Assembly (NCBI RefSeq): GCF_015265455.1
Contig: NZ_CP054492.1
Span: 1,364,001 to 1,428,000 of the forward strand
Length of the DNA: 64,000 nucleotides
Direction: 5' to 3'
DNA from: Candidatus Sulfurimonas baltica
GTDB taxonomy: Bacteria; Campylobacterota; Campylobacteria; Campylobacterales; Sulfurimonadaceae
Shown here piece by piece: positions 49,950 to 64,000 of the stretch. The notes under the pieces were generated by a model that searched no databases, was not told the DNA's origin, and saw only the letters and a list, made by a program, of their open reading frames with translations. The position numbers and the translations under genes are program-made. Each line of letters starts with the position of its first letter. Position 1 is the stretch's first letter.

Positions 49950-50195
49950 ATGAATACAATAACACTCTCAGTAGATGATGAAAACTTAGAAACCATGCTC
50001 ATCATTTTGAATAATTTAAAAACAGGTTTAATTAAAAATATTGGAACAAATGGGAAAGCATCTAAAGTCAGAACACCACCATATCAACCCAAAGTGAAGG
50101 CAATTATAAAAGATGATGACTTCGGCACTGCCGATAGCAGTGGAAAATATATAAATCCAGCGGCTTATAAACAGCGATTACAAAATAAGAAGTAA
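49950..50195 (+). CDS. Small hypothetical protein with antitoxin-like N-terminus
   Basis: 81 residues. MNTITLSVDDENLETMLIIL, then the NNLKTGLIKNI segment, recalls short antitoxins/regulators that start with a beta strand and helix; the middle is PPYQPKVKAIIKDDDFG. No partner toxin is clear. The copy in element 2 has an in-frame stop near its start (61115), making it a probable pseudogene. Confidence 0.6.
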   Translation: MNTITLSVDDENLETMLIILNNLKTGLIKNIGTNGKASKVRTPPYQPKVKAIIKDDDFGTADSSGKYINPAAYKQRLQNKK

Positions 50196-50231
50196 AACCA
50201 CTTTCACATTTAATGAAGTTTCTAATACTCT

Positions 50232-50411
50232 CTATTTTTGCGTGAGATTTAAATTCTTCCAATACTCTCTAAATTTTAGAGTGTAATATACAGATGCTTC
50301 TTCTCTTGACATTTGAAGAGGAATTTTCATGTTTGGAGATTTAGCAATCCAACTACCATCTACTAGTTTCATATCATACTTAACAAGATAATAATATTCA
50401 CCGTAAGTCAT
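50232..50411 (-). CDS. Small conserved protein, 59 residues, copy A
   Basis: MTYGEYYYLVKYDMKLVDGS, then WIAKSPNMKIPLQMSREEAS and YYTLKFREYWK. The ATG is at 50411 (AAGAG 5 nt before); a GTG at 50417 is possible. The copy at 61383-61562 is nearly identical, so it is under selection, but no family is recognised. Confidence 0.65.
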   Translation of the reverse strand: MTYGEYYYLVKYDMKLVDGSWIAKSPNMKIPLQMSREEASVYYTLKFREYWKNLNLTQK

Positions 50412-50614
50412 AAGCACTCTTTGAAGGATTTTTAAAATTATAGCAAAACACTATCATTAATTTGATGGTGGCTTTTCTTGTGGCTTAAAACACTATAAAC
50501 TCTACTATTTTATAGTGTTTCCTTTGTTTAGTCGCTTTACTCAGGCTCTTTCACTTTGTCTGCATCCAAAACCCTATAATATATCCTTTATAAGGACTTA
50601 TTAGGAGGTTTATT

Positions 50615-51208
50615 ATGAAAACTACAAAATCTATAAAAAGAATCAAAGAAAACATTACAATCGTAGAGTTTAAAAAAATTATGGCTGCAACTCGTGGAGA
50701 TGACTCTATTAGAGAGAATACAAGATTAAACTTACTCAGAACCTTTGTAATGCTGTATCACACAGGTATGAGACTAAATGAACTTCAAGATTTAAGAGTA
50801 CAAGATATAAAAGAGCTACTTGAGAATGAAACGGTTAAAGTTCTATCAAAAAAAACATCATCAGAAAGAAAACTCTATCTTACTAAAGAGTTCAAAAAGA
50901 ACCTTACACCACTATTTGACTTTGAGATAGAAGATGATGAGAATAGAGTTATCTGTAAAGGTAGCAATAAGAACAAACGAACAGGAATAAATCCTATAAC
51001 ATTCATACAGCAAGTAAATCAATATCTAAAAGTTCTTGGTAGCGGCTACACTTCCCATTCGTTTAGACAAGGTATTTTAAGCGACTTTGGAGCTAAGGGA
51101 GTTAACATAAAGATTATGAGTAAATTTATTGGACATTCTGATATCAAGACGACCCTCAAATACGTTCAGCCCAGTGACGAAGACATTATGATGAATTTGA
51201 TTAGGTAG
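50615..51208 (+). CDS. Short single-domain tyrosine recombinase, copy A
   Basis: 197 residues, only the catalytic domain: Arg in TGMRLNELQDL, the His-x-x-Arg pair in SHSFRQGIL, His in GHSDIKTTL and the Tyr in LKYVQPS. No core-binding N-domain (FimB-like length). About 96% identical to 61768-62364. Sequence immediately upstream (from ~50400) is also conserved in both elements, so it travels as a block with the small genes around it. Candidate recombinase for the downstream cassette array. Confidence 0.85.
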   Translation: MKTTKSIKRIKENITIVEFKKIMAATRGDDSIRENTRLNLLRTFVMLYHTGMRLNELQDLRVQDIKELLENETVKVLSKKTSSERKLYLTKEFKKNLTPLFDFEIEDDENRVICKGSNKNKRTGINPITFIQQVNQYLKVLGSGYTSHSFRQGILSDFGAKGVNIKIMSKFIGHSDIKTTLKYVQPSDEDIMMNLIR

Positions 51209-51293
51209 CTTGAAGTTATAAAATTCGACAAATTGCAATATTTTGAACTCCGTCTAAAATTTTATGAGAGAATCTATTTTAAGGAGTAAAATC

Positions 51294-51476
51294 ATGCAAA
51301 CATATAAAAATAGCAGTAACGTCAATGAAACTAACGATTCAACTGAAACTTACTCATACCAAGGTAGCGAAGTTATAATAATTACCGTTTTTAAAACTGG
51401 GGTGAATAGTGTAGCTATAGTTGAGGATGTCAATACAGGAGAACAGTTTGAAGTCTTTAGAGACCAACTTTATTAA
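51294..51476 (+). CDS. Small hypothetical protein, 60 residues
   Basis: From ATG 51294 behind AAGGAG (7 nt). MQTYKNSSNVNETNDSTETY, then VFKTGVNSVAIVEDVNT, and ends FRDQLY. Beta-rich. In element 2 only the last nine or so codons of this gene survive (62640-62675), behind a different gene. Confidence 0.6.
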   Translation: MQTYKNSSNVNETNDSTETYSYQGSEVIIITVFKTGVNSVAIVEDVNTGEQFEVFRDQLY

Positions 51477-51499
51477 ACTCAAAATACTTCTCCATTTCT

Positions 51500-51590
51500 T
51501 GAGGAAGAAGATGCTTCGAGTATAAAGCGATAAATCTATTTTATCGATAATCTTGACTATGAATTTTTACTGTAATTACTTTTATTCGTC
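51500..51590 (-). pseudogene. Remnant of the 74-residue gene seen in element 2
   Basis: The TTGACTATGAATTTTTACTG block (51552-51571) matches the start of the gene at 62721-62945 (TTGACTATGAATTTTTATAG), and the 3' end of the same region has a hairpin where the gene ended. The middle of the gene is missing. Likely a deletion in this module. Confidence 0.35.
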
Positions 51591-51595
51591 AGTAC

Positions 51596-51844
51596 TCATA
51601 AATGTACCTCTTCAATAACAATGTTTACGCTATCTTCAAAATCATGATAAATTTGTGAAGCATAATACTCGTGAACATTAACCATACTCTCTATTTTAGA
51701 CCCATCAAAAAACTTAGCAACTGCATTTTTAGAAAAAAACACGTTTGCCAATTCTATAGCTGCAGCTTGAGCTTTGATAAGCGTCGCAAAAGGTTTAATT
51801 ACTTGAATCTCGTTGTAGCTAATTACTATGACTAAATATTTCAT
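51596..51844 (-). CDS. Small hypothetical protein, 82 residues
   Basis: MKYLVIVISYNEIQVIKPFA, then KAQAAAIELANVFFSKNAVA. Overlaps the next gene's stop by 4 bp (ATGA), so it is co-translated. No family recognised; not in element 2. Confidence 0.6.
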   Translation of the reverse strand: MKYLVIVISYNEIQVIKPFATLIKAQAAAIELANVFFSKNAVAKFFDGSKIESMVNVHEYYASQIYHDFEDSVNIVIEEVHL

Positions 51845-52089
51845 CTTTCCTCTCCTATCATAAAATAAATAGCGTCTCTAGCGTTTCCTGTGCAAAGACC
51901 GCCATCAATTTCATTTTCTTCAAGATAATAATTATCTTCATCTTTCTCATCACTTGAGTAAACGTTAACGATATAACCTTCAGAAGTTACAGATTCAAAT
52001 ATCTCATAAAAAAGTCCATTATATTCAAACTCAATCGTTTCGCCATTTTCTAATTTTCTCTCTAACTTCTTTAACTTTGTATTGTTCAT
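51841..52089 (-). CDS. Small hypothetical protein, 82 residues, acidic
   Basis: MNNTKLKKLERKLENGETIE, then FEYNGLFYEIFES and a very acidic middle. Starts in a TAATG overlap with DUF2958 copy B. No family recognised; not in element 2. Confidence 0.6.
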   Translation of the reverse strand: MNNTKLKKLERKLENGETIEFEYNGLFYEIFESVTSEGYIVNVYSSDEKDEDNYYLEENEIDGGLCTGNARDAIYFMIGEER

Positions 52090-52391
52090 TAGTGTAGCTT
52101 CTTTACTTCTGATAGAGGTGTTGGCGTAAAGTGAATATCACGCTCTATTGGTAATCCAAGTGGACCCCTTATTGATTCAAGTTCTTTCAAATTAAAATAA
52201 CCAAGTTCTGATTCATGACCTACAACATAGCCGAAACATGTAAAATCTTCTTTTGATACCTCAGTGATATACCAAGTCCAGTTGCTATCTGGTGTGAAGA
52301 GTTTTATATGACATGTTGGGTCTTTGGTGTTTTCTGTGTCGTAGATGTTAGGGAGTGTTTGTAAGAGTTTAGGAGGGATAAGTGTTTGCAA
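52089..52391 (-). CDS. DUF2958 protein, copy B
   Basis: 100 residues from TTG 52391, preceded by AAAGG at 8 nt; the product LQTLIPPKLLQTLPNIYDTEN aligns from its first residue with the ATG-started copy C at 63785, which settles the start. Core KLFTPDSNWTWYI and ELESIRGPLGLPIERDIHF. This gene marks the end of the conserved module, with the cargo array after it on the left side of its start. Confidence 0.8.
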   Translation of the reverse strand: MQTLIPPKLLQTLPNIYDTENTKDPTCHIKLFTPDSNWTWYITEVSKEDFTCFGYVVGHESELGYFNLKELESIRGPLGLPIERDIHFTPTPLSEVKKLH

Positions 52392-52473
52392 TTTTGTTAC
52401 CTTTCTTAAGATTATCATCACTTAATGTTTCAAGTACCCTACCAGAAGAAAAACTTTTAATAAAAAATAGCTT

Positions 52474-52495
52474 TGTTCCAAAAAGAACAGGTTTA
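52474..52495. repeat. Half-site S0 at the cargo array start
   Basis: TGTTCCAAAAAGAACAGG (and a few more bases) matches 55171-55191 with one substitution and one gap. It lies just after the conserved module ends (module copies diverge at about 52446 and 63840) and before the first cargo gene. Confidence 0.55.
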
Positions 52496-52593
52496 TGAAC
52501 CTAATGTAAATAATTTGCTATTTTTCCAAAAAGCGAAGTAAAAATTTATTTGAATTGTGTTAAGCTGACTTATTAGACTTAAAGGTTATATAT

Positions 52594-53400
52594 ATGAAAA
52601 AAGCTTTATGTTATCTAGTTATTAGTTATTTCTTTTCAATGAACTTATACGCAATTACATTAGGTGTAGTTCCTCAACAAAGCCCACTTAAACTTATGAA
52701 GGTCTGGGCTCCGATAGCTCAGTATCTTAAAAAAGAGACTGGTATAGATGTTACATTAAAAATTGAATCATCAATTACTAAGTTTGAAAGAGTACTATAC
52801 TCTGGTGGGTACGATATTGCCTACATGAATCCATATCATTATGTAGTAGCTCATAAGAAAAAAGGTTATTTAGCAAAAGTAAAAGCACATAAAAATATTG
52901 TTGGTATATTGGTTACAAGAAAAGATAGTGCTATACAAACTACACAAGACTGTAAAAATAAGATTTTTCTCTTTCCTGCTCCAAATGCTTTTGCAGCAAC
53001 CTTAGTTACAAAATATGAGTTGTTGAAATTTTTTAATATAGAGCTAAATGAAGAGAAAAAGTTTCTTTACGTCAACTCACATGATTCTGTTTATAAAGGT
53101 GTTGCTAGAGGTATTGGAGATGTTGGTGGTGGGATTGAAAGAACATTTGAAAATTTAAATGATAAAGTAACTAAAAACTCTTTAAATATTTTATACAAAA
53201 CAAAAGGTTATCCTAGTCATCCATTTGCTTTTAAACCATCTTTAAAAGAAGAGACTATAAAAAAAATGTCTAAAGCTATTCTCAATATGCCAAACGGTTT
53301 ATTAAATAAGTTGAGCATAAAAAAAATGATAAAAACTGATGACTCTCAATATAATATAATAAGAGATATTGCTACAAAACTTAAAATGGATAAAAATTAA
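52594..53400 (+). CDS. PhnD-like periplasmic binding protein
   Basis: 268 residues with a signal peptide (MKKALCYLVISYFFSMNLYA). The binding-protein fold segments TLGVVPQQSPLKLMKVWAPIAQYL, YDIAYMNPYHYVVAHK and YKGVARGIGDVGGGIER are like phosphonate/phosphite/phosphate PhnD proteins. No ABC transporter genes are next to it. Instead a membrane diguanylate cyclase follows with a 2-bp gap, so the pair may sense an anion and turn it into a c-di-GMP signal. Confidence 0.85.
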   Translation: MKKALCYLVISYFFSMNLYAITLGVVPQQSPLKLMKVWAPIAQYLKKETGIDVTLKIESSITKFERVLYSGGYDIAYMNPYHYVVAHKKKGYLAKVKAHKNIVGILVTRKDSAIQTTQDCKNKIFLFPAPNAFAATLVTKYELLKFFNIELNEEKKFLYVNSHDSVYKGVARGIGDVGGGIERTFENLNDKVTKNSLNILYKTKGYPSHPFAFKPSLKEETIKKMSKAILNMPNGLLNKLSIKKMIKTDDSQYNIIRDIATKLKMDKN

Positions 53401-53402
53401 AG

Positions 53403-54983
53403 ATGTTTATATCTTTTAAATATAAGTTCATAGTGTCATTTGTAATATTGAATATATTTTTTATATCCGTCGTTGTATTTTTCAATTTTTCATCAATAGA
53501 AAAGTTATCTAACTCTTTGGTTAGTCAAAATATGAAGATGGCTAGTAAACTTTTTAGTGAGCTTATTGTTACTCCTATTATTGTTAATGACCTTGCAACT
53601 TTAGATAATACAGTAAATAGCTTCGTGAGTATTAAGAATGTTATTGCGGTTAAGATAATGAATAATAATAATATTGTTTTATCTCATAAAAATGATGAAA
53701 ATCCTACTTACAAAAATATCTTTGAGAACAATAAAGAGATATTACATCTAAATGAAAGAACATTGGTATTGAAATTATTAGATATAAAAATTGATGATGA
53801 TATTATTGCAAAAGCAAAAATAATTTTTGAAATTACTGATAGTTTACGTATGCAAGAGCGTAACAAAAATGTTACATTTATAATGATGATACTAGAGATA
53901 ATAGTAATTATTTTAGTTGCTTACTTAATTGGATCTAGCTTGATTAGGAGACTTAGTGTTTTAACACATTCTGCGGAGGAAATAGCAGAAAATAATCAGG
54001 TCACTATTCCAAATATTGATAATTATAAAGATGAAGTATCTATATTGGCAAATACACTCCAGTTAATGCAAAATAAAATCAATAAACGAAGTGATGAATT
54101 GAAAAAATACATTCAGCTTGTTAATGAAAACATTCTTATTTCAAGAACTGATTTAAATGGAATTATTACAGATGTTAGTGAAGCTTTATGTGAAGTGTCT
54201 GGATTCTCTAAAGAAGAATTAATTGGAAAAACCCATGCAGTGATTAAGCATCCAGACACATTGATAAGTGAACATGAAAATTTATGGAAAACTATTTCTA
54301 AAGGTAATGAATGGCATGCAGATGTAAAAAATAAAACAAAAGATGGTGGTTTTTTCTGGGCTGACTCTAGCATCTATCCAGATTACGATTATAATCAAAA
54401 TATTATTGGATATTATGCTATTCGTCATGATATTACTAGTAAAAAAGAGATAGAAAAGTTATCTATTACTGATGGGCTAACTAAATTATACAATAGACGA
54501 TATTTTGATAACATGTTTGATGAAGAGATTAATAGAGCAAAACGAGATAGAAAAATATTTTGTTTATTATCCTTAGATATAGACTTCTTTAAAAAATATA
54601 ATGATACTTATGGACATCCAGAGGGTGATCAGGTTTTAATAACTATAGCTAGAGTTTTAAACTCACATATGAAAAGAGCAGGTGATATTGCATTTAGAAT
54701 AGGTGGTGAAGAATTTAGTGCAATTTTTGTAGAAAAAAATGAAAAAAATGTTTATACCTTTACTGAAAATATACGTCAAGATATAGAAAATCAACAAATT
54801 CAACATATAGAAAATACATCTTCAAATTTTGTAACTGCATCATTTGGTGTTATTTATATTGATTTTAGTAAAAATAATAATGCTGAAACAAATAGAGAGG
54901 TACTTTATAAAGAAGCTGATAATCAGCTATATAAGGCTAAAGAGACAGGACGAAATAAGGTTGTAATCAAAGCATGTAATTAG
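53403..54983 (+). CDS. Membrane diguanylate cyclase with PAS domain, cargo unit 1
   Basis: 526 residues: helix (10-29), periplasmic domain (about 30-155), helix (156-178), HAMP-like (180-230), PAS (about 240-345), GGDEF (about 350-526). Active site GGEEF (434-438) and the RxxD inhibitory site (Arg425, Asp428) are both present, so it is probably an active, product-inhibited cyclase. Its partner is the PhnD-like protein upstream, which likely binds the periplasmic domain. Confidence 0.92.
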   Translation: MFISFKYKFIVSFVILNIFFISVVVFFNFSSIEKLSNSLVSQNMKMASKLFSELIVTPIIVNDLATLDNTVNSFVSIKNVIAVKIMNNNNIVLSHKNDENPTYKNIFENNKEILHLNERTLVLKLLDIKIDDDIIAKAKIIFEITDSLRMQERNKNVTFIMMILEIIVIILVAYLIGSSLIRRLSVLTHSAEEIAENNQVTIPNIDNYKDEVSILANTLQLMQNKINKRSDELKKYIQLVNENILISRTDLNGIITDVSEALCEVSGFSKEELIGKTHAVIKHPDTLISEHENLWKTISKGNEWHADVKNKTKDGGFFWADSSIYPDYDYNQNIIGYYAIRHDITSKKEIEKLSITDGLTKLYNRRYFDNMFDEEINRAKRDRKIFCLLSLDIDFFKKYNDTYGHPEGDQVLITIARVLNSHMKRAGDIAFRIGGEEFSAIFVEKNEKNVYTFTENIRQDIENQQIQHIENTSSNFVTASFGVIYIDFSKNNNAETNREVLYKEADNQLYKAKETGRNKVVIKACN

Positions 54984-55021
54984 ATGAACTAGCATGAAAA
55001 AATTGAAAGATTTTGATAGAG

Positions 55022-55058
55022 CTACGAAATCCTTGTTTTCGATCTTTTGTAGTTTTTT
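55022..55058 (+). terminator. Rho-independent terminator after the diguanylate cyclase
   Basis: CTACGAAA (55022-55029) pairs with TTTTGTAG (55045-55052), followed by a T6 run (55053-55058). Confidence 0.75.
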
Positions 55059-55106
55059 AAGAATTTTCAGTATGCGTAGCCACACTAAACTTTAACCTCA
55101 TAAACT

Positions 55107-55177
55107 CTTATATTTGGAGCAATTTTTAGTAACAGAAAGATTGCTCTAAATAGAGTTGAATTTTTGAGCATGTTCCA
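55107..55177. repeat. Cassette-border repeat S1
   Basis: 71 bp, about 86% identical to S2 at 56758-56828. Starts CTTATATTTG and ends TGTTCCA. GGAGCAAT (55116-55123) can pair with ATTGCTCT (55140-55147), and the outer TGGAGCA with TGTTCCA. Located after the first cargo unit. Confidence 0.75.
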
Positions 55178-55346
55178 AAAATAACAGTTTAAGTAAATGT
55201 CTAGTTTGTAAAGGACATTCCAATCATGGAAAATAATCAAAACAAAGATGAGACTATCCATATTCCAGAAGTTTTAAAACCTTAGTTATGGAATTATACA
55301 AAACATGTTAAAATAGTTAAAGTAATTACTAACTAGAGGAGAAATT

Positions 55347-56216
55347 ATGAGGAAGTTACATATTATACTTGCTGCAATCAACATGTCTATTTTAGATGAT
55401 GAAGTTATGAAAAGAGCGATGTTTACTGCAAAAGAAACAAATGCACAACTACACTTCATTCATACGATTGATATACCACTAATGGATATAGAAATAACCT
55501 CCCAATATTTAGGAAAGAAAATTGACAAAGATGCTATCAAAAAGAAGATAGTCCATAAAATAAATGCACTAAATGAGTCTAAATCTGTTGAATATATTGT
55601 TAATATCACTATAGGGGATGCTTCCGAACAAGTTATGCATATGGCCGAAAAAATTCATGCTGATTTGATTATTCTTGGTTCACATTCAAAAGCAAAAATT
55701 GAGGACTACTATCTTGGGTCTACTGTACAAAAAATTGCAGAAGAAAGCGGGCGTCCTATTTTAGTAATTAAAAATAGTTTTCAAGGAGCTTACAAAAATA
55801 TTTTAGCACCAACAGACTTCTCGAGTTCTTCTAAAAAAAGTGTTCTATTCACACAAATAGCATTTAAATCTTCTCCTATTATACTTATACATGCTTATAA
55901 AAGTTTAGATGATTTTACAATGGAATTTTATACACTCAAGTCAAATAATGAAGAAGAGTACCCAGACTTCTTAGGTCGGTCATATGCAGATATCTTTAAA
56001 CAAGATGTAGGTATTAGGCATATAGATATGATTAAAAGTTTTTCATCTATTAATAAGAGTTTACTTGAGTATATTCAAAATAAACAAAGTGATCTTATTG
56101 TTCTTGGTTCTAGTGGATCTGACATTGTAGGTTCATTTCTTAGTTCTACTGCTTCTTATCTACTTAGAAACACTTTTACAGATGTGTTAATTTACATTCC
56201 CCTGAATCAAGAGTAA
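55347..56216 (+). CDS. Tandem universal stress protein (UspA), cargo unit 2
   Basis: 289 residues with two Usp domains (about 1-140 and 146-288). ATP-binding-type loops are ILGSHSKAKIEDYYLGSTV in the first and VLGSSGSDIVGSFLSSTA in the second. GAGGAG precedes the ATG at 55347. Usp proteins help survival under stress. The PsiE-like gene follows with a 25-bp gap in the same direction, so the two form one unit. Confidence 0.92.
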   Translation: MRKLHIILAAINMSILDDEVMKRAMFTAKETNAQLHFIHTIDIPLMDIEITSQYLGKKIDKDAIKKKIVHKINALNESKSVEYIVNITIGDASEQVMHMAEKIHADLIILGSHSKAKIEDYYLGSTVQKIAEESGRPILVIKNSFQGAYKNILAPTDFSSSSKKSVLFTQIAFKSSPIILIHAYKSLDDFTMEFYTLKSNNEEEYPDFLGRSYADIFKQDVGIRHIDMIKSFSSINKSLLEYIQNKQSDLIVLGSSGSDIVGSFLSSTASYLLRNTFTDVLIYIPLNQE

Positions 56217-56241
56217 ATAAATTATTTAACAAGGAAATATA

Positions 56242-56727
56242 ATGAATATTCATGACGAACTACCGACAGAGCATGAAGATGCTTTAATCGCATTTTTACA
56301 TAAAATAATAAAGATAGCGGTAAAAGTATTAGCAATATTAATGGTACTTGTAATATTTTGGGGTGTAGGGGATGTTGTATATGTACTTTATCAAAATCTA
56401 ATGGCTCCACCATTTATGTTACTTAGTATATCAGACATATTTAAAACCTTTGCAGCTTTTCTTGTTGTACTTATAGCCATAGAAATTTATCAAAATATTG
56501 TTATGTATCTAAGAACAGATGTAATACCAATTAAATTAGTAGTTGCAACGGCATTGATGGCAATTGCTAGAAAAGTAATTATAATAGACTTTAGTACTAT
56601 AACCCCAATGTATATTTTTGCTACAGCTGCAGTAGTTTTAGCGCTTGGTATCACTTATTATCTTATAGGGAAACATCATAAAGAAAAGATTCTAGATCAA
56701 AGAAAAGGTGCTACTGATACAGATTGA
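56242..56727 (+). CDS. PsiE-like phosphate-starvation-inducible membrane protein
   Basis: 161 residues, four membrane helices (about 25-50, 58-80, 100-115, 125-145), with IKLVVATALMAIARKVIIIDF, the typical central PsiE stretch. Function unknown in the family; in E. coli it is phosphate-regulated. AAGGAAATA precedes the ATG. The association with a PhnD-like protein in the array suggests that the cargo as a whole deals with phosphorus or stress. Confidence 0.85.
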   Translation: MNIHDELPTEHEDALIAFLHKIIKIAVKVLAILMVLVIFWGVGDVVYVLYQNLMAPPFMLLSISDIFKTFAAFLVVLIAIEIYQNIVMYLRTDVIPIKLVVATALMAIARKVIIIDFSTITPMYIFATAAVVLALGITYYLIGKHHKEKILDQRKGATDTD

Positions 56728-56757
56728 TTAAAGAGGATATAGCATTTTCAAAATATA

Positions 56758-56828
56758 CTTATATTTGAAACAATTTTTAGTAACGGAAGGATTGTTCCAA
56801 ATAGCATTGAATTTTTGAACATGCTCCA
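56758..56828. repeat. Cassette-border repeat S2
   Basis: 71 bp, same length as S1, about 10 differences. Ends TGCTCCA. GAAACAAT and ATTGTTCC are inverted, with a compensating change relative to S1 in the fourth pair (G-C to A-T). Located after the second cargo unit. Confidence 0.75.
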
Positions 56829-56963
56829 TAAGGTACTAATTGTGGGACTAAATTATGATTTAGAATAAAAAGAAACATTTTTTAGAGAATGCTATAACTC
56901 TTTTAATTTATAAAGAAGACTTATATTTTAAATTAGATAAAATACCAAAACTTGGAGTTAAAC

Positions 56964-58898
56964 TTGAAAATAAAAAACATTATATTATTAACATTACTTT
57001 TTATATCTACAAATAGTATTGTATATACAATTACAGAAGTATACTCAAAACAACGAATAGATTTAGTCCTAAAAGAGGATTTAAATAAACTACAAATTCA
57101 TTTTGAGATTTTAAATACTACACAAAAAAACATCGCCTATGCTATATCTCAATCAATACAAAGAAATACAGATGCAATTAAGTTTTTAAGTGAGTCATAT
57201 ACTGCAAGTGTAGAACAAAATAAACTCAATAGAGAAAAACTTAATACTCAACTAAAAGAACAATATAGAACTGCTAAAAAACAAGGAGTACTGCAACTAC
57301 AGTTTGTAAATAGAGATAATATCTCTTTTTTAAGAGTTCATAAACCATCAAAATTTGGAGATGATTTAACTACTGTTAGAGAAGATTATAAAATAGTTAA
57401 TACAACTAAAGAAACAATTAGAGGTTTTACTCAAGGGAGAACTGCACACGGGTTCAGAAACACTTTTCCACTATTTGATAAAAATAATATACATATTGGA
57501 GCAATGGAGATCTCTTTTTCAAGTGCAAAATATCAAAGTTACCTAGACAATGTTAGTGATATACACACTCACTTTTTAGTTGATAAAAAAATATTCAATT
57601 CTAAAACTTTGGAAACTAAAAATTTAGTAATAAACTATGAACAATCTGCGGAAGACAACCACTTTATGCTAAATTTAGGTCCATTTCATTCACATCAACG
57701 ATGTATTGTAGAAAATAACAAAAAACTTAAATCATATAGAAAAATTATAGATACTCATACCAAAACAGGTGAAAAGTTCAACTTTTATTTGAAGTTTAAT
57801 CAAGATATAGAAATAGTATCATTTTTACCTATTAAAAACTTATCAAATAAAACTGTAGCTTGGATTGTATCATATACAAAATCAGATATTATTAAATCAT
57901 TAATTACTAGCACTATGATTATTAGAGTATTATCTTTCTTTCTATCACTAGTGATAATATATCTTATATATAGACAAATTAAATCAAATCTTCAAATTAA
58001 AATTGAACAAGAAAAATCTGAAAAAAAACAAAATTTATTAAATGAGATTTTAAATACAACAGATAATATTATGATAATCACTGACTTTAAAGATATCAAA
58101 TATTCAAATGATAAATTTAAATCAATGATGCTAATAGCACATACATCTCAATACAATGAAGAATCTCATCATAATATGCTAAATCTGTTTATGGAAACAG
58201 ATAGTTACTTACATAGTGGATTACTAAAAGAGAATGAATCATTTGCACATCTGTATAGAAATACTAGAATAACAGATAGAAAGGTACTCATACTCAATGA
58301 AAACTTTGAACCAAAAGCATACTCTATAGTTATCCAAAAGCTTAAAGACAAAGGAGAATATCTAGTAACTCTATCAGATATATCTGAACTGCAAGAGGAG
58401 TTTAAAGAGGTTGAAAATAAAGCTTATATAGATGGACTTACAGGAGTTTATAATAGAAATAAATTTAATGAACTATTTAGTAAAGAGTTAGAAAGAGTAG
58501 AAAGATATAAAGAACCATTAAGTATTACAATTATTGATATTGATCATTTTAAAAAGTTCAATGATACATTTGGACATTTAGTTGGAGATGAAGTTCTAGT
58601 ATCTATGGCTCAAACTGTAAATAAAAGTACAAGAGAAACAGATACCTTTGCTAGATGGGGTGGAGAGGAGTTTGTAATTATGTTTATTGATACTACTGTA
58701 GATAAAGCTAAAAAAGTAGCAGAATCTTTAAAAGATAAAATTGAGGCAAATGAACATCCAACAGCAGGTAAAATAACTGCTAGCTTTGGGATAACAGAAT
58801 ATAAAGATGGAGACAATCTAGATACAATGTTTAAAAGATGTGATGATGCTCTTTATAAAGCTAAAGAAAATGGTAGAAATAGAGTTGAATGTTTATAG
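56964..58898 (+). CDS. Membrane diguanylate cyclase with periplasmic sensing domain, cargo unit 3
   Basis: About 644 residues from TTG 56964 (GGAG 6-7 nt before); a TTG at 56952 is possible. Helix (about 5-25), a large periplasmic double-Cache-like domain (about 30-305, LQFVNRDNISFLRVHKPSKFG), a second helix (about 315-340), an unclear middle domain, and GGDEF at the end. GGEEF in FARWGGEEFVIMF with the RxxD site RETD five residues before, so active and inhibitable. It stands alone in its unit, followed by repeat S3. Confidence 0.92.
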   Translation: MKIKNIILLTLLFISTNSIVYTITEVYSKQRIDLVLKEDLNKLQIHFEILNTTQKNIAYAISQSIQRNTDAIKFLSESYTASVEQNKLNREKLNTQLKEQYRTAKKQGVLQLQFVNRDNISFLRVHKPSKFGDDLTTVREDYKIVNTTKETIRGFTQGRTAHGFRNTFPLFDKNNIHIGAMEISFSSAKYQSYLDNVSDIHTHFLVDKKIFNSKTLETKNLVINYEQSAEDNHFMLNLGPFHSHQRCIVENNKKLKSYRKIIDTHTKTGEKFNFYLKFNQDIEIVSFLPIKNLSNKTVAWIVSYTKSDIIKSLITSTMIIRVLSFFLSLVIIYLIYRQIKSNLQIKIEQEKSEKKQNLLNEILNTTDNIMIITDFKDIKYSNDKFKSMMLIAHTSQYNEESHHNMLNLFMETDSYLHSGLLKENESFAHLYRNTRITDRKVLILNENFEPKAYSIVIQKLKDKGEYLVTLSDISELQEEFKEVENKAYIDGLTGVYNRNKFNELFSKELERVERYKEPLSITIIDIDHFKKFNDTFGHLVGDEVLVSMAQTVNKSTRETDTFARWGGEEFVIMFIDTTVDKAKKVAESLKDKIEANEHPTAGKITASFGITEYKDGDNLDTMFKRCDDALYKAKENGRNRVECL

Positions 58899-58961
58899 TT
58901 TTAAACTGTTTGGATTAAATTTAAATCTGTTATAAAACATACTCTTAAACTCCTTTAATCT

Positions 58962-59007
58962 CTTATATTTGGAACACAAAGTACTCAAATGAGTTTTATA
59001 TGTTCCA
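58962..59007. repeat. Cassette-border repeat S3
   Basis: 46 bp, starts CTTATATTTGGAACA and ends TGTTCCA. TGGAACA (58970-58976) and TGTTCCA (59001-59007) are perfect inverted repeats, and ACTCA-AA-TGAGT forms an inner hairpin. The interior differs from S1 and S2, but the ends match. Located after the third cargo unit. Confidence 0.7.
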
Positions 59008-59214
59008 CAAAGTGTTCAAAAAGTAAAAAGTATAAATTCCCACAAAGCCTTAGGCGTTTTGGAATAACATCTTAAGTGAATCATTCAGCTCACAAAACGG
59101 TACCAAAAACGGACACTAAACTTCACTTAATTTCCTAATATACAGGAAAATTAATCAAAAAGAAGCCTTTATTTCCTACTATTTCCAGCAATTACAGGAA
59201 AAGATGGGTAATCG

Positions 59215-59246
59215 TAATAGACCCGTATGTTCATGCTAAACCCCTT
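59215..59246. repeat. att copy between elements 1 and 2
   Basis: Exact 32-bp match to 37637-37668, including the first codons and ribosome site of ybgC but not the rest of the gene. It is the right end of element 1 and left end of element 2. Confidence 0.9.
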
Positions 59247-59506
59247 ATATACCGTGCTTTACGAGCTTTTAAAGATTTAGCGAACACAAAACCGGTCACT
59301 AAAATGTTTGAAACTGAAAGCTATTTTGCTTATATTTTTTTGTATTGTACTAAAAACAAGCACTATCTATGATGAGATTTAAAATGAATATATTCTTTGT
59401 GTCCGTTAATACCCTCACCTAACAAATCTATATGATAAAGAAAAGATTAATGCGTTTGTACGTGTTCTTTCATTTCGAATCAAATACAATCAAAAAAGGA
59501 TTACTC

Positions 59507-59857
59507 ATGTTTGAAGAGCTAATCGAAAAAATAAATAAAATAGAGGCGAATGTGAATCTACTTTTACAGTTACATATAGAACAATCAAATAGTTTAACTA
59601 CATATAATGATGTTGCAAAATTTTTAGGAGTAACACGTAAAACTATTTATAACTATATAAAAGATGGAAATTTTATAGAAGATAAACATTTTTATAGAAA
59701 TAATAAAAGAACTCCAACATTTATTCCATCTGGAGTTATTGAGTTTAAAAAGGGTGTAAAAGCTGTTGAGACAAAATCAGTTTTGCCATCTCTTAAAAAG
59801 CCAATTGAAAGAGTAAATAATCCAATTGTGTCAAATATGCTTATAGGGGTGGCATAA
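59507..59857 (+). CDS. HTH protein (excisionase-like), element 2
   Basis: 116 residues from ATG 59507 behind AAAGGA (7 nt); longer upstream frames lack a ribosome site. MFEELIEKINKIEANVNLLL, then SLTTYNDVAKFLGVTRKTIYNYIKDGNF. Very like the 39566 protein. Overlaps the integrase region by stop/start proximity. Confidence 0.8.
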   Translation: MFEELIEKINKIEANVNLLLQLHIEQSNSLTTYNDVAKFLGVTRKTIYNYIKDGNFIEDKHFYRNNKRTPTFIPSGVIEFKKGVKAVETKSVLPSLKKPIERVNNPIVSNMLIGVA

Positions 59858-61029
59858 TGAAAGTAGATAACAACACATATGTTACTGTTCTAGGAATAAA
59901 ATTTACCATTAAAGAAAAGTACGGCAAGCTTCATATTGCTTTTAATATAGATGCCAAAAGAAAAAATAGATCCACAGGTCTTGAAGCAACTAAAAAGAAT
60001 TTGATTGTTGTAAAAAATGAGATTCTTCCACAGTTTGCTCAAGAACTCATAGCACTAAAAAGCTCTACACAATCAACAATAATTGTTGAAAATGATAATT
60101 CTACTCTTGAAAGTATTGCTGATATCCATTTTTTACTTCATAAAGAGAAAGTTCGTGATCATGTATACAAACGTGAAATAAGGAACTACAATCGGCATAT
60201 AATACCCTACTTCAAAGGTCGACAGCTTAATTCAATAAAATCTATGGAGATTGAGGCTTGGCAAAATCGACTTTTAACTAAATACAAAGTCTTGAGTGTT
60301 AAAAAGTATAGAAGTATCTTTTATTCGATCTATACACGCGCTATACAGAACGAACTAGTCATAAAGAACCCATTTGACAATGTACCTGCCCCATCGCTTA
60401 AAAAAGAGTTCTATACTTATGCTGAAGCAGAGACTGTTAATCCTTTCACTCAATCAGAAATAGACAAACTTTTAGGTTCCGAAGATGATACATACATTCC
60501 AAACTTTATAAAACTGATGTCAAATTGTGGAGCTCGCCCGGGAGAGTTAATTGCTCTAGTATGGGATGACATTGATTTTGAGAAGCGAACTATAAATATT
60601 GCTAAGACTATTGTTAATAATGTTGTCAACTTACCTAAGACAATCTCTAGTGTTCGTTGTATAGATATGATAGATGGTGCATATGAAGCGTTACAAGCCC
60701 AATACAAGTTAACTGGTACATATGGCACGAATGTGTTTTTAAACTCTAGTAAGAAGAGTTTCTACAGCCACGATATTATAAATCTACTGATGCAAAAGAG
60801 ACTCAAAAAGTTAGGTATTGAACCAAGAAGCCTTTATCAATTTCGCCATTCATTTGCCTCCAGAATGATTAAAAATGGTATTGATATTACATGGGTTTCC
60901 AAGATGCTAGGCCATAAAGACAGCTCTATCACACTTCAGGTCTATACCCATTACTTAAAAGAAGAGGCTCTAGAAATTATTGTTGATTTAATAAAATGTG
61001 AAATGCAAAGTAAAACAGATATAAAGTAG
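59857..61029 (+). CDS. Tyrosine integrase, element 2
   Basis: 390 residues, aligned throughout with 39901-41094. Catalytic residues: Arg in CGARPGELIALVW, RHSFASRMI, GHKDSSI, and Tyr in LQVYTHYL. Full length and intact. Divergence from the element 1 integrase suggests that element 2 is a related but separate family member and not a recent duplicate. Confidence 0.93.
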   Translation: MKVDNNTYVTVLGIKFTIKEKYGKLHIAFNIDAKRKNRSTGLEATKKNLIVVKNEILPQFAQELIALKSSTQSTIIVENDNSTLESIADIHFLLHKEKVRDHVYKREIRNYNRHIIPYFKGRQLNSIKSMEIEAWQNRLLTKYKVLSVKKYRSIFYSIYTRAIQNELVIKNPFDNVPAPSLKKEFYTYAEAETVNPFTQSEIDKLLGSEDDTYIPNFIKLMSNCGARPGELIALVWDDIDFEKRTINIAKTIVNNVVNLPKTISSVRCIDMIDGAYEALQAQYKLTGTYGTNVFLNSSKKSFYSHDIINLLMQKRLKKLGIEPRSLYQFRHSFASRMIKNGIDITWVSKMLGHKDSSITLQVYTHYLKEEALEIIVDLIKCEMQSKTDIK

Positions 61030-61102: not shown

Positions 61103-61342
61103 ATGATTATTGAATAGGTAGATGATGAAAACTTAGAAATTGTACAAACAGTACTTAACAATTTGAAAGCTGGGTTGATTAAAGATATTGAAACAAACGG
61201 AAAAGTGTCTAAAGTAAGAACGCCACCATATCAGCCAAGAATTAAGACAATCATGAAAGATGATGACTTTGGAACAAACGATAGCAGTGGAAAATATATA
61301 AATCCAGCGGCTTATAAACAGCGGTTACAAAATAAGAAGTAA
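61103..61342 (+). pseudogene. Broken copy of the 81-residue antitoxin-like gene
   Basis: From GTA 61118 the frame matches 49950-50195 closely (VDDENLE, then TPPYQP and the identical GKYINPAAYKQRLQNKK end), but the first part is replaced: ATG 61103, then a TAG at 61115-61117 directly before the conserved region. It has no start codon of its own in the right place. Confidence 0.7.
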
Positions 61343-61382
61343 TCTATAATTTTTTAACATTTGATGAAATTTTTAATACTCT

Positions 61383-61562
61383 CTATTTTTGCGTGAGATT
61401 TAAACTCTTCCAATACTCTCTAAATTTGAGAGTGTAATATACAGATGCTTCTTCTCTTGACATTTGAAGAGGAATTTTCATGTTTGGAGATTTAGCAATC
61501 CAACTACCATCTACTAGTTTCATATCATACTTAACAAGATAATAATATTCACCGTAAGTCAT
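61383..61562 (-). CDS. Small conserved protein, 59 residues, copy B
   Basis: Differs from copy A in one residue (KSLNLTQK against KNLNLTQK). Start chosen at ATG 61562 as in copy A; the GTG two codons before is possible. No family recognised. Confidence 0.65.
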   Translation of the reverse strand: MTYGEYYYLVKYDMKLVDGSWIAKSPNMKIPLQMSREEASVYYTLKFREYWKSLNLTQK

Positions 61563-61767
61563 AAGCACTCTTTGAAGCTTTTTTTAAAATTATAGCAAAA
61601 TCACTATCATTAATTTGATAGTGAATTTTCTTGTGGCTTAAAACACTATAAATCAATCTATTTTATATGGTTTTGTTGGTTCCGTGCGTTTACTTAGCCT
61701 CTTTCACTTTGTCTGCATCCAAAACCCTATAAAATCTCCTATATAAGGACTTATTAGGGGGTTTATT

Positions 61768-62364
61768 ATGAAAACTACAAAATCAATAAAAAGAATCAAA
61801 GAGAACATAACAATCGTTGAGTTTAAAAAGATTATGGCTGCAACTCGTGGAGATGACTCTATAAGAGAGAATACAAGATTAAATCTACTTAGAACCTTTG
61901 TAATGCTATATCACACAGGTATGAGACTAAATGAACTTCAAGATTTAAGACTACAAGATATAAAAGAGCTACTTGAAAATGAAACTGTTAAAGTTGTCTC
62001 CAAAAAAACATCTTCAGAGAGAAAACTCTATCTTACTAAAGAGTTCAAAAAGAACCTTACACCACTATTTGACTTTGAGATTGAAGATGATGAAAATAGA
62101 ATAATCTGCAAAGGTAGCAATAAGAACAAACGAACTGGCATAAACACTATTACTTTTATTCAACAGATAAATAAATATCTAAAATCAGTTCTTGGTAGTG
62201 GCTACACATCGCACTCCTTTAGACAAGGAATTTTAAGTGACTTTGGTGCCAAGGGAGTTAATATCAAAATTATGAGTAAATTTATTGGACATTCTGATAT
62301 TAAGACTACCCTCAAATATGTTCAGCCAACAGACGAAGATATTATGATGAATTTGATTAGGTAA
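61768..62364 (+). CDS. Short single-domain tyrosine recombinase, copy B
   Basis: 198 residues, catalytic domain only, with the same Arg, HSFRQ, GHSD and KYVQP motifs as copy A; one-residue insertion and about seven substitutions. The AT-rich upstream segment and ribosome site (AGGGGG) are also nearly the same. Likely functional. Confidence 0.85.
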   Translation: MKTTKSIKRIKENITIVEFKKIMAATRGDDSIRENTRLNLLRTFVMLYHTGMRLNELQDLRLQDIKELLENETVKVVSKKTSSERKLYLTKEFKKNLTPLFDFEIEDDENRIICKGSNKNKRTGINTITFIQQINKYLKSVLGSGYTSHSFRQGILSDFGAKGVNIKIMSKFIGHSDIKTTLKYVQPTDEDIMMNLIR

Positions 62365-62467
62365 CAAGATATTTGCACCTAGCTATATTTTTAAGTGGCA
62401 GTACTTTTTATTGGAACAAGGTAGACTAAAAAGATTGTATGATAGAATGCAGCCATAAAAAGGGTAT

Positions 62468-62632
62468 ATGATGGCAACTAGTTTTAAAAATGGTAATGAG
62501 GGAAAATATTGTTCTGTTTGTGATGACTGGAAAGAACTGCATGAATATCATAATGAAACAGCCAAAGGTTCTTCGCAAGGTGGCAAGCAAAATGTATGTA
62601 AAGAATGTGTCCAAAAAAGAAATAAAAAATAG
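62468..62632 (+). CDS. Small zinc-ribbon protein, 54 residues
   Basis: MMATSFKNGNEGKYCSVCDD, then WKELHEYHNETAKGSS, then NVCKECVQKRNKK. The CSVC and CKEC pairs make a four-cysteine zinc site, as in HNH-associated or McrA-like small zinc fingers. A weak AAGGG ribosome site precedes. It replaces the 60-residue protein of element 1; the end of that gene (LEVFRNQLY) remains in another frame just after it (about 62640-62675). Confidence 0.65.
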   Translation: MMATSFKNGNEGKYCSVCDDWKELHEYHNETAKGSSQGGKQNVCKECVQKRNKK

Positions 62633-62639
62633 TTCCTCT

Positions 62640-62675
62640 ATAACACTGGAAGTATTTAGAAATCAACTTTATTAA
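62640..62675 (+). pseudogene. 3' remnant of the 60-residue gene
   Basis: Encodes LEVFRNQLY and the stop, matching the FEVFRDQLY end of 51294-51476, but nothing before it matches. It shows that the upstream gene was exchanged by recombination near this point. Confidence 0.55.
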
Positions 62676-62720
62676 ACTTAAAATATTTCTTCATTCTTTA
62701 AAGAAGAAGATGCTTCGAGT

Positions 62721-62945
62721 TTAACTAAATACATCTATTTTAGATGTAATCGCTTCAATCGCAATATCTTGTAAATACAACGAATGGACTGACTTACAAT
62801 AAGCTCGAAGTAAATCAATACGTTTATTGTTCCCTTGCAAATCAAAATCTTCATTCATTGAAAAGAATAAACTCATTACATACTCATCACTGACCTTCAC
62901 ATCAAAATCTTGACTATGAATTTTTATAGTAATAATTTTATCCAT
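62721..62945 (-). CDS. Small hypothetical protein, 74 residues
   Basis: MDKIITIKIHSQDFDVKVSD, then EYVMSLFFSMNEDFDLQGNN. Overlaps the next gene by 8 bp. In element 1 only its start and end survive (51500-51590). No family recognised. Confidence 0.6.
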   Translation of the reverse strand: MDKIITIKIHSQDFDVKVSDEYVMSLFFSMNEDFDLQGNNKRIDLLRAYCKSVHSLYLQDIAIEAITSKIDVFS

Positions 62946-63483
62946 TTTCTAGCTTTTGATCTAAATCTAAAAACTCTGTTCTAGATGTATCCTTACCCTC
63001 AAGAGTACTTATAGACTCTCTAATTAGTTCCACTAGCTCATCTACATCAAAATTTGAAGTCTTACTAGCACCATTATTGATAATAACATTTGAGACTAAT
63101 TTTAAAAGTGCTTCAACTTTAACAACATCATTTTTTATGTGGTAAGGGATAGTGTATTTATCAAGATAGTTAAATTCATATTCTACATCTTCCGATAGAT
63201 TATTAAAAGCCTGTTCTTCATCAAACTGTGAGTTCAAAAGGAAATCCATTAAATCAGACTTTTGTTCTTTCGTTACAATCTCTGGAATCTCTTCGTTAAT
63301 ACTACTAAATTTTAAAGTGTACTCACCATCATATTCATCACAATTTAGTAGGTCTATTATTTCAGACTTCTGACACTCTAAGTTTATGTATATATATAGT
63401 GTACCTCTTATGCCCATAATGCTACTTACTTCTGGATTGTTATAGATTTTGAAATTGAGTTGTTTATGAATGATTGATGTCAT
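62938..63483 (-). CDS. Hypothetical protein, 181 residues
   Basis: Acidic and soluble, MTSIIHKQLNFKIYNNPEVS onward, no recognised family. Starts in a TAATG overlap with DUF2958 copy C. It takes the place of the 82-residue gene pair of element 1. Confidence 0.65.
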   Translation of the reverse strand: MTSIIHKQLNFKIYNNPEVSSIMGIRGTLYIYINLECQKSEIIDLLNCDEYDGEYTLKFSSINEEIPEIVTKEQKSDLMDFLLNSQFDEEQAFNNLSEDVEYEFNYLDKYTIPYHIKNDVVKVEALLKLVSNVIINNGASKTSNFDVDELVELIRESISTLEGKDTSRTEFLDLDQKLENG

Positions 63484-63785
63484 TAGTGGAGCTTCTTTAC
63501 TTCTGATAGAGGTGTTGGAGTAAAACTTGTATCTTGTTCTATTTTTAAACCAAATGGACCACGAACTGAGTTTAACTCGCTTAATGTAAAGTAGCCAAGT
63601 TCTAACTCATGCCCAGAAACTAATCCGAAACAAGTATCCTTATCTTCTTTAGATATCTCTGTGATGTACCAAGTCCAATTACTATCAGGTGTGAATAGTT
63701 TTATGTGACAGATGGGATCTTTTGTGTTTTCTGTGTCGTATAGGTCTGGCAGGCTTAAGAGTGCTTTTTGGATTAGTGTTTGCAT
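63483..63785 (-). CDS. DUF2958 protein, copy C
   Basis: 100 residues, ATG 63785, with AAGG before it. KLFTPDSNWTWYI, then LNSVRGPFGLKIEQDTSFTPT. Same length and position as copy B. The conserved block runs ~55 bp beyond its start and then diverges from element 1 at about 63840. Confidence 0.8.
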   Translation of the reverse strand: MQTLIQKALLSLPDLYDTENTKDPICHIKLFTPDSNWTWYITEISKEDKDTCFGLVSGHELELGYFTLSELNSVRGPFGLKIEQDTSFTPTPLSEVKKLH

Positions 63786-64000
63786 GAATAACCTTTTTAT
63801 TTATTGATTATCATCTTTAAAAGGTTCAGATACCCTACCATGAGACAGGACATGAGACATATGGTTTAGTGAGTTTGATTGATTAGAGAAAAGTGTATTA
63901 AGAAGTTGACTTTATGAGACAGAGAAGATGGTGACTTATATCAAATAATGTTAGATATGATATTATTACCAATACAACTCTCGGAGCAATTGATATGATA

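Follow-up and report, generated by a model that had tools for sequence, protein, structure and literature searches.

How does a genome come to carry a row of unrelated genes, each followed by a similar repeat, and what joins them together? The question is raised by a 64,000-nucleotide stretch of Candidatus Sulfurimonas baltica DNA (positions 1,364,001 to 1,428,000 of NZ_CP054492.1, hereafter the window), which is part of one complete 2.74-Mb contig. An earlier note, made from the letters alone, had described here a cassette-like array of three cargo units, with repeats S1, S2 and S3 after the units and a half-site, S0, before the first of them. Each cargo unit is indeed followed by a site (Table 1), and the array is flanked by two diverged copies, 75-96% alike, of a mobile-element module. 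S0 starts 24 bp past the end of the left copy.

Table 1. The array in the window and its flanks (positions count from the first letter of the window)
Feature	Position	Strand	Description
Mobile-element module, left copy	50010..52449		short tyrosine recombinase and DUF2958 gene
Short single-domain tyrosine recombinase, left copy	50615..51208	+	197 aa; weak link to S/T across genomes
S0, remnant of S site	52474..52501	+	third inverted repeat only (TGTTCCAAAAAGAACAGGTTTATGAACC); partial copy, last third of S
Module 1 cargo	52594..54983	+	PhnD-like substrate-binding protein 52594-53400; PAS-GGDEF diguanylate cyclase 53403-54983
S1 site	55094..55198	+	repeat I 55094-55121, II 55142-55170, III 55171-55198; CTTATA from 55107; predicted crossover dinucleotide CT at 55107-55108
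Module 2 cargo	55347..56727	+	universal stress protein (Usp) 55347-56216; PsiE-like protein 56242-56727
S2 site	56745..56849	+	repeat I 56745-56772, II 56793-56821, III 56822-56849; CTTATA from 56758; predicted crossover dinucleotide CT at 56758-56759
Module 3 cargo	56952..58898	+	dCache-GGDEF diguanylate cyclase
T site (S3 of the earlier note)	58949..59073	+	repeat I 58949-58976, then direct half-sites, last inverted repeat
Small HTH gene	59432..59857		precedes int390
int390, full-length tyrosine integrase	59857..61029	+	390 aa; beyond T
Mobile-element module, right copy	61157..63845		short tyrosine recombinase and DUF2958 gene
Short single-domain tyrosine recombinase, right copy	61768..62364	+	198 aa; 2.7 kb beyond T

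S1 and S2 are two copies of one site of about 105 bp, with 85% identity over 74 nt, which is beyond chance. Scoring the half-site TGTTCCAAAA along 57 distinct S sites gave six main peaks, forward at columns -12, 36 and 65 and reverse at columns 6, 55 and 83, and S is made up of three adjacent inverted repeats of this half-site, 28, 29 and 28 bp long; 20 bp separate the first two, and the last two adjoin directly. The outermost two half-sites sit in the flanks outside the searched profile, and hence were unseen by the search model; of 2000 permuted motifs, none scored as well at one of these positions and one did at the other. In the central dinucleotide of repeat I, C is conserved in 100% and T in 98% of sites. 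A res site of the Tn3/gamma-delta type has three dimer sites of inverted half-sites in about 114 bp, and S has the same three over 105 bp.

The third repeat fared differently. S3 (from 58962) is a real site, but what it has in common with S1 and S2 is the first ~15 bp and a TGTTCCA, after which another consensus follows; by its sequence it is not a third copy of the same repeat but a different, related class of site, which we call T. A T site has repeat I as in S, two direct half-sites in its middle and a final inverted repeat, so that the three-dimer layout of a res site is present in part. S0 is likewise real, though partial. T occurs six times in this genome, and among the 399 genomes of the order a search with a T model located it at 78 places in 40. 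In most arrays T lies downstream of the last S and in the same direction, as the array-terminal class: it closes the window array, a second array in the same genome (below), arrays in the genomes G118, G311, G155, G347, G370, G411 and G379, and arrays on the plasmids pSULFM1, p133_LEO_107 and pM830MA. The genes to the right of T are highly variable; pAFAEC and one further plasmid have an annotated Tn3 transposase next to T. In many loci (L240, L248, and as remnants elsewhere) the 3′ end of an IS256-type transposase gene, whole or remnant, directly abuts T. An origin of T from an IS256 end was considered and rejected, as T adjoins IS256 3′ ends in some loci but many other genes too.

S1 and S2 contain inverted repeats, and a compensating base-pair change between the two had been taken to suggest selection on a fold. 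One pair does change from G-C to A-T, but 3 of 13 copies cannot form it, and neither the inner nor the outer stems of S showed covariation beyond shuffles among the 57 distinct sites, so that selection on a fold, and with it a folded, single-stranded site, is unsupported. Hairpin 1 had a weak excess of pairing in the same sites (86.3% against 84.7% in shuffles). Single copies can fold, S1 strongly, because the half-sites are all complementary to one another, and Rfam gave no meaningful family match across 52000-59300. S is conserved in the manner of a protein-binding site and has the layout of a double-stranded, three-part res site.

Searching related genomes for such sites, as the earlier note had proposed, bore out its key prediction of many sites behind different cargo. 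With a covariance model of 13 S sites, S was found in 20 of the 399 genomes, mostly one per species, across eight genera and two families. The copies form same-direction arrays, spaced mostly at 1-7 kb; the cargo between neighbours is unrelated, and in 42 of 43 neighbouring pairs both copies have the same orientation. Dispersal of the repeats at gene ends without cargo exchange, which would have made them ordinary intergenic repeats, was not what these genomes contained. The named relatives found through the resolvase and on plasmids belong to Sulfurimonas, Arcobacter, Aliarcobacter and Poseidonibacter, and the cargo of named plasmid arrays includes Shedu, Lit, TIR-type and DUF262 genes, which are likely to act in phage defence. 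The one exact pattern used on IMG/VR viral contigs matched no S core there. On the A. butzleri plasmid p83_DSM_105473 (L200; 49933-50022 and 55396-67096) an antibiotic resistance gene cluster stands a few kb from an S site, and nothing indicates that S moved it.

The genome of the window carries a second array between 1461 and 1507 kb, where ten S sites lie on the opposite strand, with toxin-antitoxin pairs, IS elements, regulators and enzymes as cargo. Here the Usp-PsiE module recurs as a near-identical copy (G000:C1:1473466-1472086, minus strand): the displayed alignment of about 1.6 kb has one mismatch, the sites on either side differ, and the identity runs only from the right edge of the upstream site as far as the left edge of the downstream site. 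Another species (G379) has a 93.6% copy of the same module. A two-component module occurs at 180 kb and at 1449 kb, 96.6% alike over 3.1 kb, and is then followed by S at one place and by T at the other. Comparison of the sequences thus demonstrates that cargo has been exchanged between arrays, plasmids and species of Sulfurimonas- and Arcobacter-type bacteria; the suggestion of a cassette-like system is borne out in this respect. The site pairs S1/b4 and S2/b3 flank the same, nearly identical cargo and yet differ at 12-16 of 80 positions; in S1 and b4, which differ at 12, the differences are mostly transitions, and the site did not, then, simply travel with the module.

Break positions of the exchanges were fitted on pairs of sites that resemble each other by at least 93% in one flank and are unrelated in the other. 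Eleven sharp comparisons, with one flank 97-100% alike, were drawn from the same genome, from plasmids and from other genera and include both S and T sites; in every one the break interval holds columns 1-2, the centre of repeat I, with its near-invariant dinucleotide, where a res site would cross over at its site I. In three loci the cargo is common up to AACCTCT and is followed by three different T sites, while in two plasmids T and everything to its right are exactly alike and the cargo to the left differs. Three further breaks, including that of S1/b4, fall at columns 77-98 around repeat III and do not fit a crossover in repeat I; some pairs of resolvase units break at columns 48-69. These may reflect other events. 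Linking S to its flanks column by column across the whole set of sites gave no information, since distant sites resembled one another as closely as linked ones did.

When the proteins of the arrays were clustered across genomes, a single recombinase proved to be shared by most arrays, a serine resolvase of 187 aa, SR187. It matches the Pfam Resolvase family, and its best solved relatives are the gamma-delta and Tn3 resolvases, to which it aligns at full length, with the catalytic serine, at position 9, and the DRL.R motif in register. SR187 is present in 13 of the 399 genomes, namely in 12 of the 20 with S and in one of the other 379 (Fisher P=6e-17). In the Campylobacterota loci checked, its gene lies antisense inside S, at the repeat III end; serine resolvases typically have a site of three repeats and their gene beside the third. 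This arrangement was found in the 12 genomes, the remaining eight being without SR187. The window array has no SR187 gene and the second array of the same genome does; T occurs in 40 genomes, most of them without SR187. Distant relatives at ~50% identity (in Thiothrix, Bacillus and others) had no S nearby by profile.

Taken together, S and T are probably res-type recombination sites, and the arrays are probably gene modules joined at them and working like cassettes, with a resolvase of the SR187 type as the most likely enzyme. A module would end with the left half of a repeat I, the right half being supplied by the next S or T. SR187, which is of the Tn3/gamma-delta type, or a relative of it most likely binds the three repeats and pairs two same-direction sites, with strand exchange predicted at the near-invariant CT in the centre of repeat I. 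Two S sites in one array would allow the block between them to be deleted as a circle, and the reverse reaction, or an exchange between replicons, would insert or swap blocks; new modules may first enter in such ways, and exchange is probably still occurring. T is a related site which usually closes an array, and module blocks stand joined to it on its left. The enzyme alone would not explain how new modules enter, since classical resolvases delete more readily than they insert.

Three other explanations have to be weighed against this one. The earlier note had pointed to the short tyrosine recombinase, and S and T could be recombined by that single-domain enzyme of the window, or by full-length integrases near T. 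In several genomes and plasmids a gene of one subfamily of the short enzyme lies 27-40 bp from T, with its 3′ end toward T, and this subfamily may have a role there; tyrosine recombinases are also able to use inverted core sites. Of the 14 genomes among the 399 that carry the short enzyme, seven have T (P=1e-4) but only four are among the 20 with S, to which SR187 is far more tightly linked; moreover the genes right of T vary greatly, and the layout of S is that of a serine resolvase site. We regard this explanation as unlikely, and the type of enzyme and site is better explained, as far as sequence can tell, by a serine resolvase with res-like sites than by the earlier reading. The full-length integrase int390 was rejected as the enzyme of the system, its close relatives being rare and its gene pointing away from T. 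A little less probable still, in our view, is a passive role: S and T would be terminators or miniature transposable elements, intergenic repeats dispersed at gene ends, and the modules would be moved by IS elements or by homologous recombination between the repeats. S and T are intergenic, T often lies between convergent genes, and IS elements often abut the sites, including identical IS1182 copies at the same site column in b3 and b8. Passive repeats would not, however, be expected to keep nearly all neighbouring copies in one direction, nor to be so low in copy number and grouped in arrays. The left and right flank families of S also assort independently (31 pairs share the left only, 115 the right only and 3 both), which is not what repeated insertion into targets would give, and breaks due to homologous recombination would spread over the site rather than cluster at one position. 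As an observation in its own right, IS elements have inserted at fixed positions beside S or T at b3 (1472049), b8 (1493035) and the T sites 550760 and 1139709, and two identical IS1182 copies at the same column of two different S sites recall res-hunting elements.

The array could also be an integron derivative, a CALIN (a cluster of attC-like sites without its integrase), in which S and T would be aberrant attC or attI sites served by an IntI encoded at another place in the genome. A genuine IntI is encoded at C1:1711582-1712526 (411 bits against a cut-off of 265), about 290 kb from the window array and with canonical attC cassettes behind it (locus C1:1711576-1712574, L271), and there is a second, broken integrase with cassettes (C1:1289402-1290139, locus to 1290157, L272). 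In the Arcobacteraceae a canonical attC often lies 8-13 nt ahead of the start of S, four integrons have T behind their last attC, and ~350 bp of integron intI-attI intergenic DNA, without intI, stands directly right of some S sites (L112, L115, L194 and L196). The canonical attC sites of this genome and its relatives nevertheless carry the core (RYYYAAC ... GTTRRRY around a hairpin) and look unlike S and T, from both of which the core is absent, as had been claimed. The window array also has no canonical attC, and the second array is almost free of them. There is no enrichment of IntI among genomes with S (8/20, as against 15/59 controls; P=0.26), S has no covariation-backed fold, and in 3 of the 11 comparisons the break interval excludes the G|TT positions at the edge of S. 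With S beside attC, attI regions after S and T after the last attC, integron pieces seem to travel as modules between S and T sites, as one kind of cargo among others; the four loci with intI-attI DNA seem, from their sequence, to be mini-integrons carried in this way. We consider descent from an integron quite improbable. A narrower proposal, that S is attC-like on either strand with exchange at its AG|GTT edges, is attractive because GTT stands at both edges of S; it was rejected on the canonical attC found beside S, the failed covariation and the three break intervals that exclude it.

If S and T are res-type sites worked by a resolvase, their nearest counterpart is the res site of Tn3 and gamma-delta, which spans 114 bp, is bound by three dimers and is cleaved, with a 2-nt stagger, in its site I (PMC2428073). 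The likenesses are three inverted repeats of one half-site, each of about 28 bp, a resolvase of the same family with its gene at the site III end, and breaks at the centre of site I, with toxin-antitoxin and other modules being swapped. Single exchanges of gene modules at res site I have been reported between Tn3-family transposons (PMC7157771). S differs from Tn3 res in its gaps of 20 and 0 bp, and the arrays differ in that no Tn3 transposase is needed nearby and that, where a Tn3-family element is a single transposon, bounded by 38-bp terminal inverted repeats and carrying a Tn3 transposase, whole arrays of modules are built on many tandem sites, with T as a terminal class of its own. Portable resolvase-res elements, TIME-RES among them (PMC4133298), also move a small resolvase gene and a res site as a unit, and one of them has a resolvase of 187 aa; they are bounded by Tn3-type inverted repeats and, unlike S and T, do not form arrays.

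Cassette arrays of two other kinds invite comparison. The dif/pdif sites are 28-bp Xer sites with XerC and XerD halves and alternating orientation. They too are short recombination sites joining modules that are shuffled between plasmids and chromosome, and it is established that dif modules, such as those of Acinetobacter plasmids, are moved by Xer recombination (PMC13141974, PMC6449649). S and T do not belong with them: S is ~105 bp long, in three repeats and one direction, and its probable enzyme is of a different kind from the host XerCD. Integron cassette arrays and CALINs (PMC8618304) resemble the S/T arrays in their tandem unrelated genes in one direction, the site behind each unit, the special site at one end and the toxin-antitoxin pairs and defence genes in the cargo; S and T differ in having neither attC architecture nor a link to IntI, in breaking at a resolvase-type centre and in having T at the downstream end.

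A stronger version of our proposal, which we hold tentatively and think rather doubtful, is that this is a dedicated gene-capture system doing the job of an integron with a serine resolvase, in which T would be a fixed acquisition platform and repeat I the point at which S-bounded blocks (single genes, defence systems, whole mini-integrons) are acquired and exchanged among chromosomes and plasmids of different genera. The open papers searched contained no description of tandem module arrays that are built on res-like sites and closed by a terminal class of site, nor any report of this kind of enzyme for such arrays.

Integrons and Xer (dif) modules already provide bacteria with cassette arrays; arrays on resolvase sites would add a third way of gathering and rearranging accessory genes. 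Resolvases are thought mainly to delete, and whether they are capable of driving gene capture becomes testable, with the S and T models serving as a search profile. The carriers of these arrays are Sulfurimonas- and Arcobacter-type bacteria, including food-borne species, and the genes which they would collect and reshuffle in this way include regulators and likely phage-defence genes.
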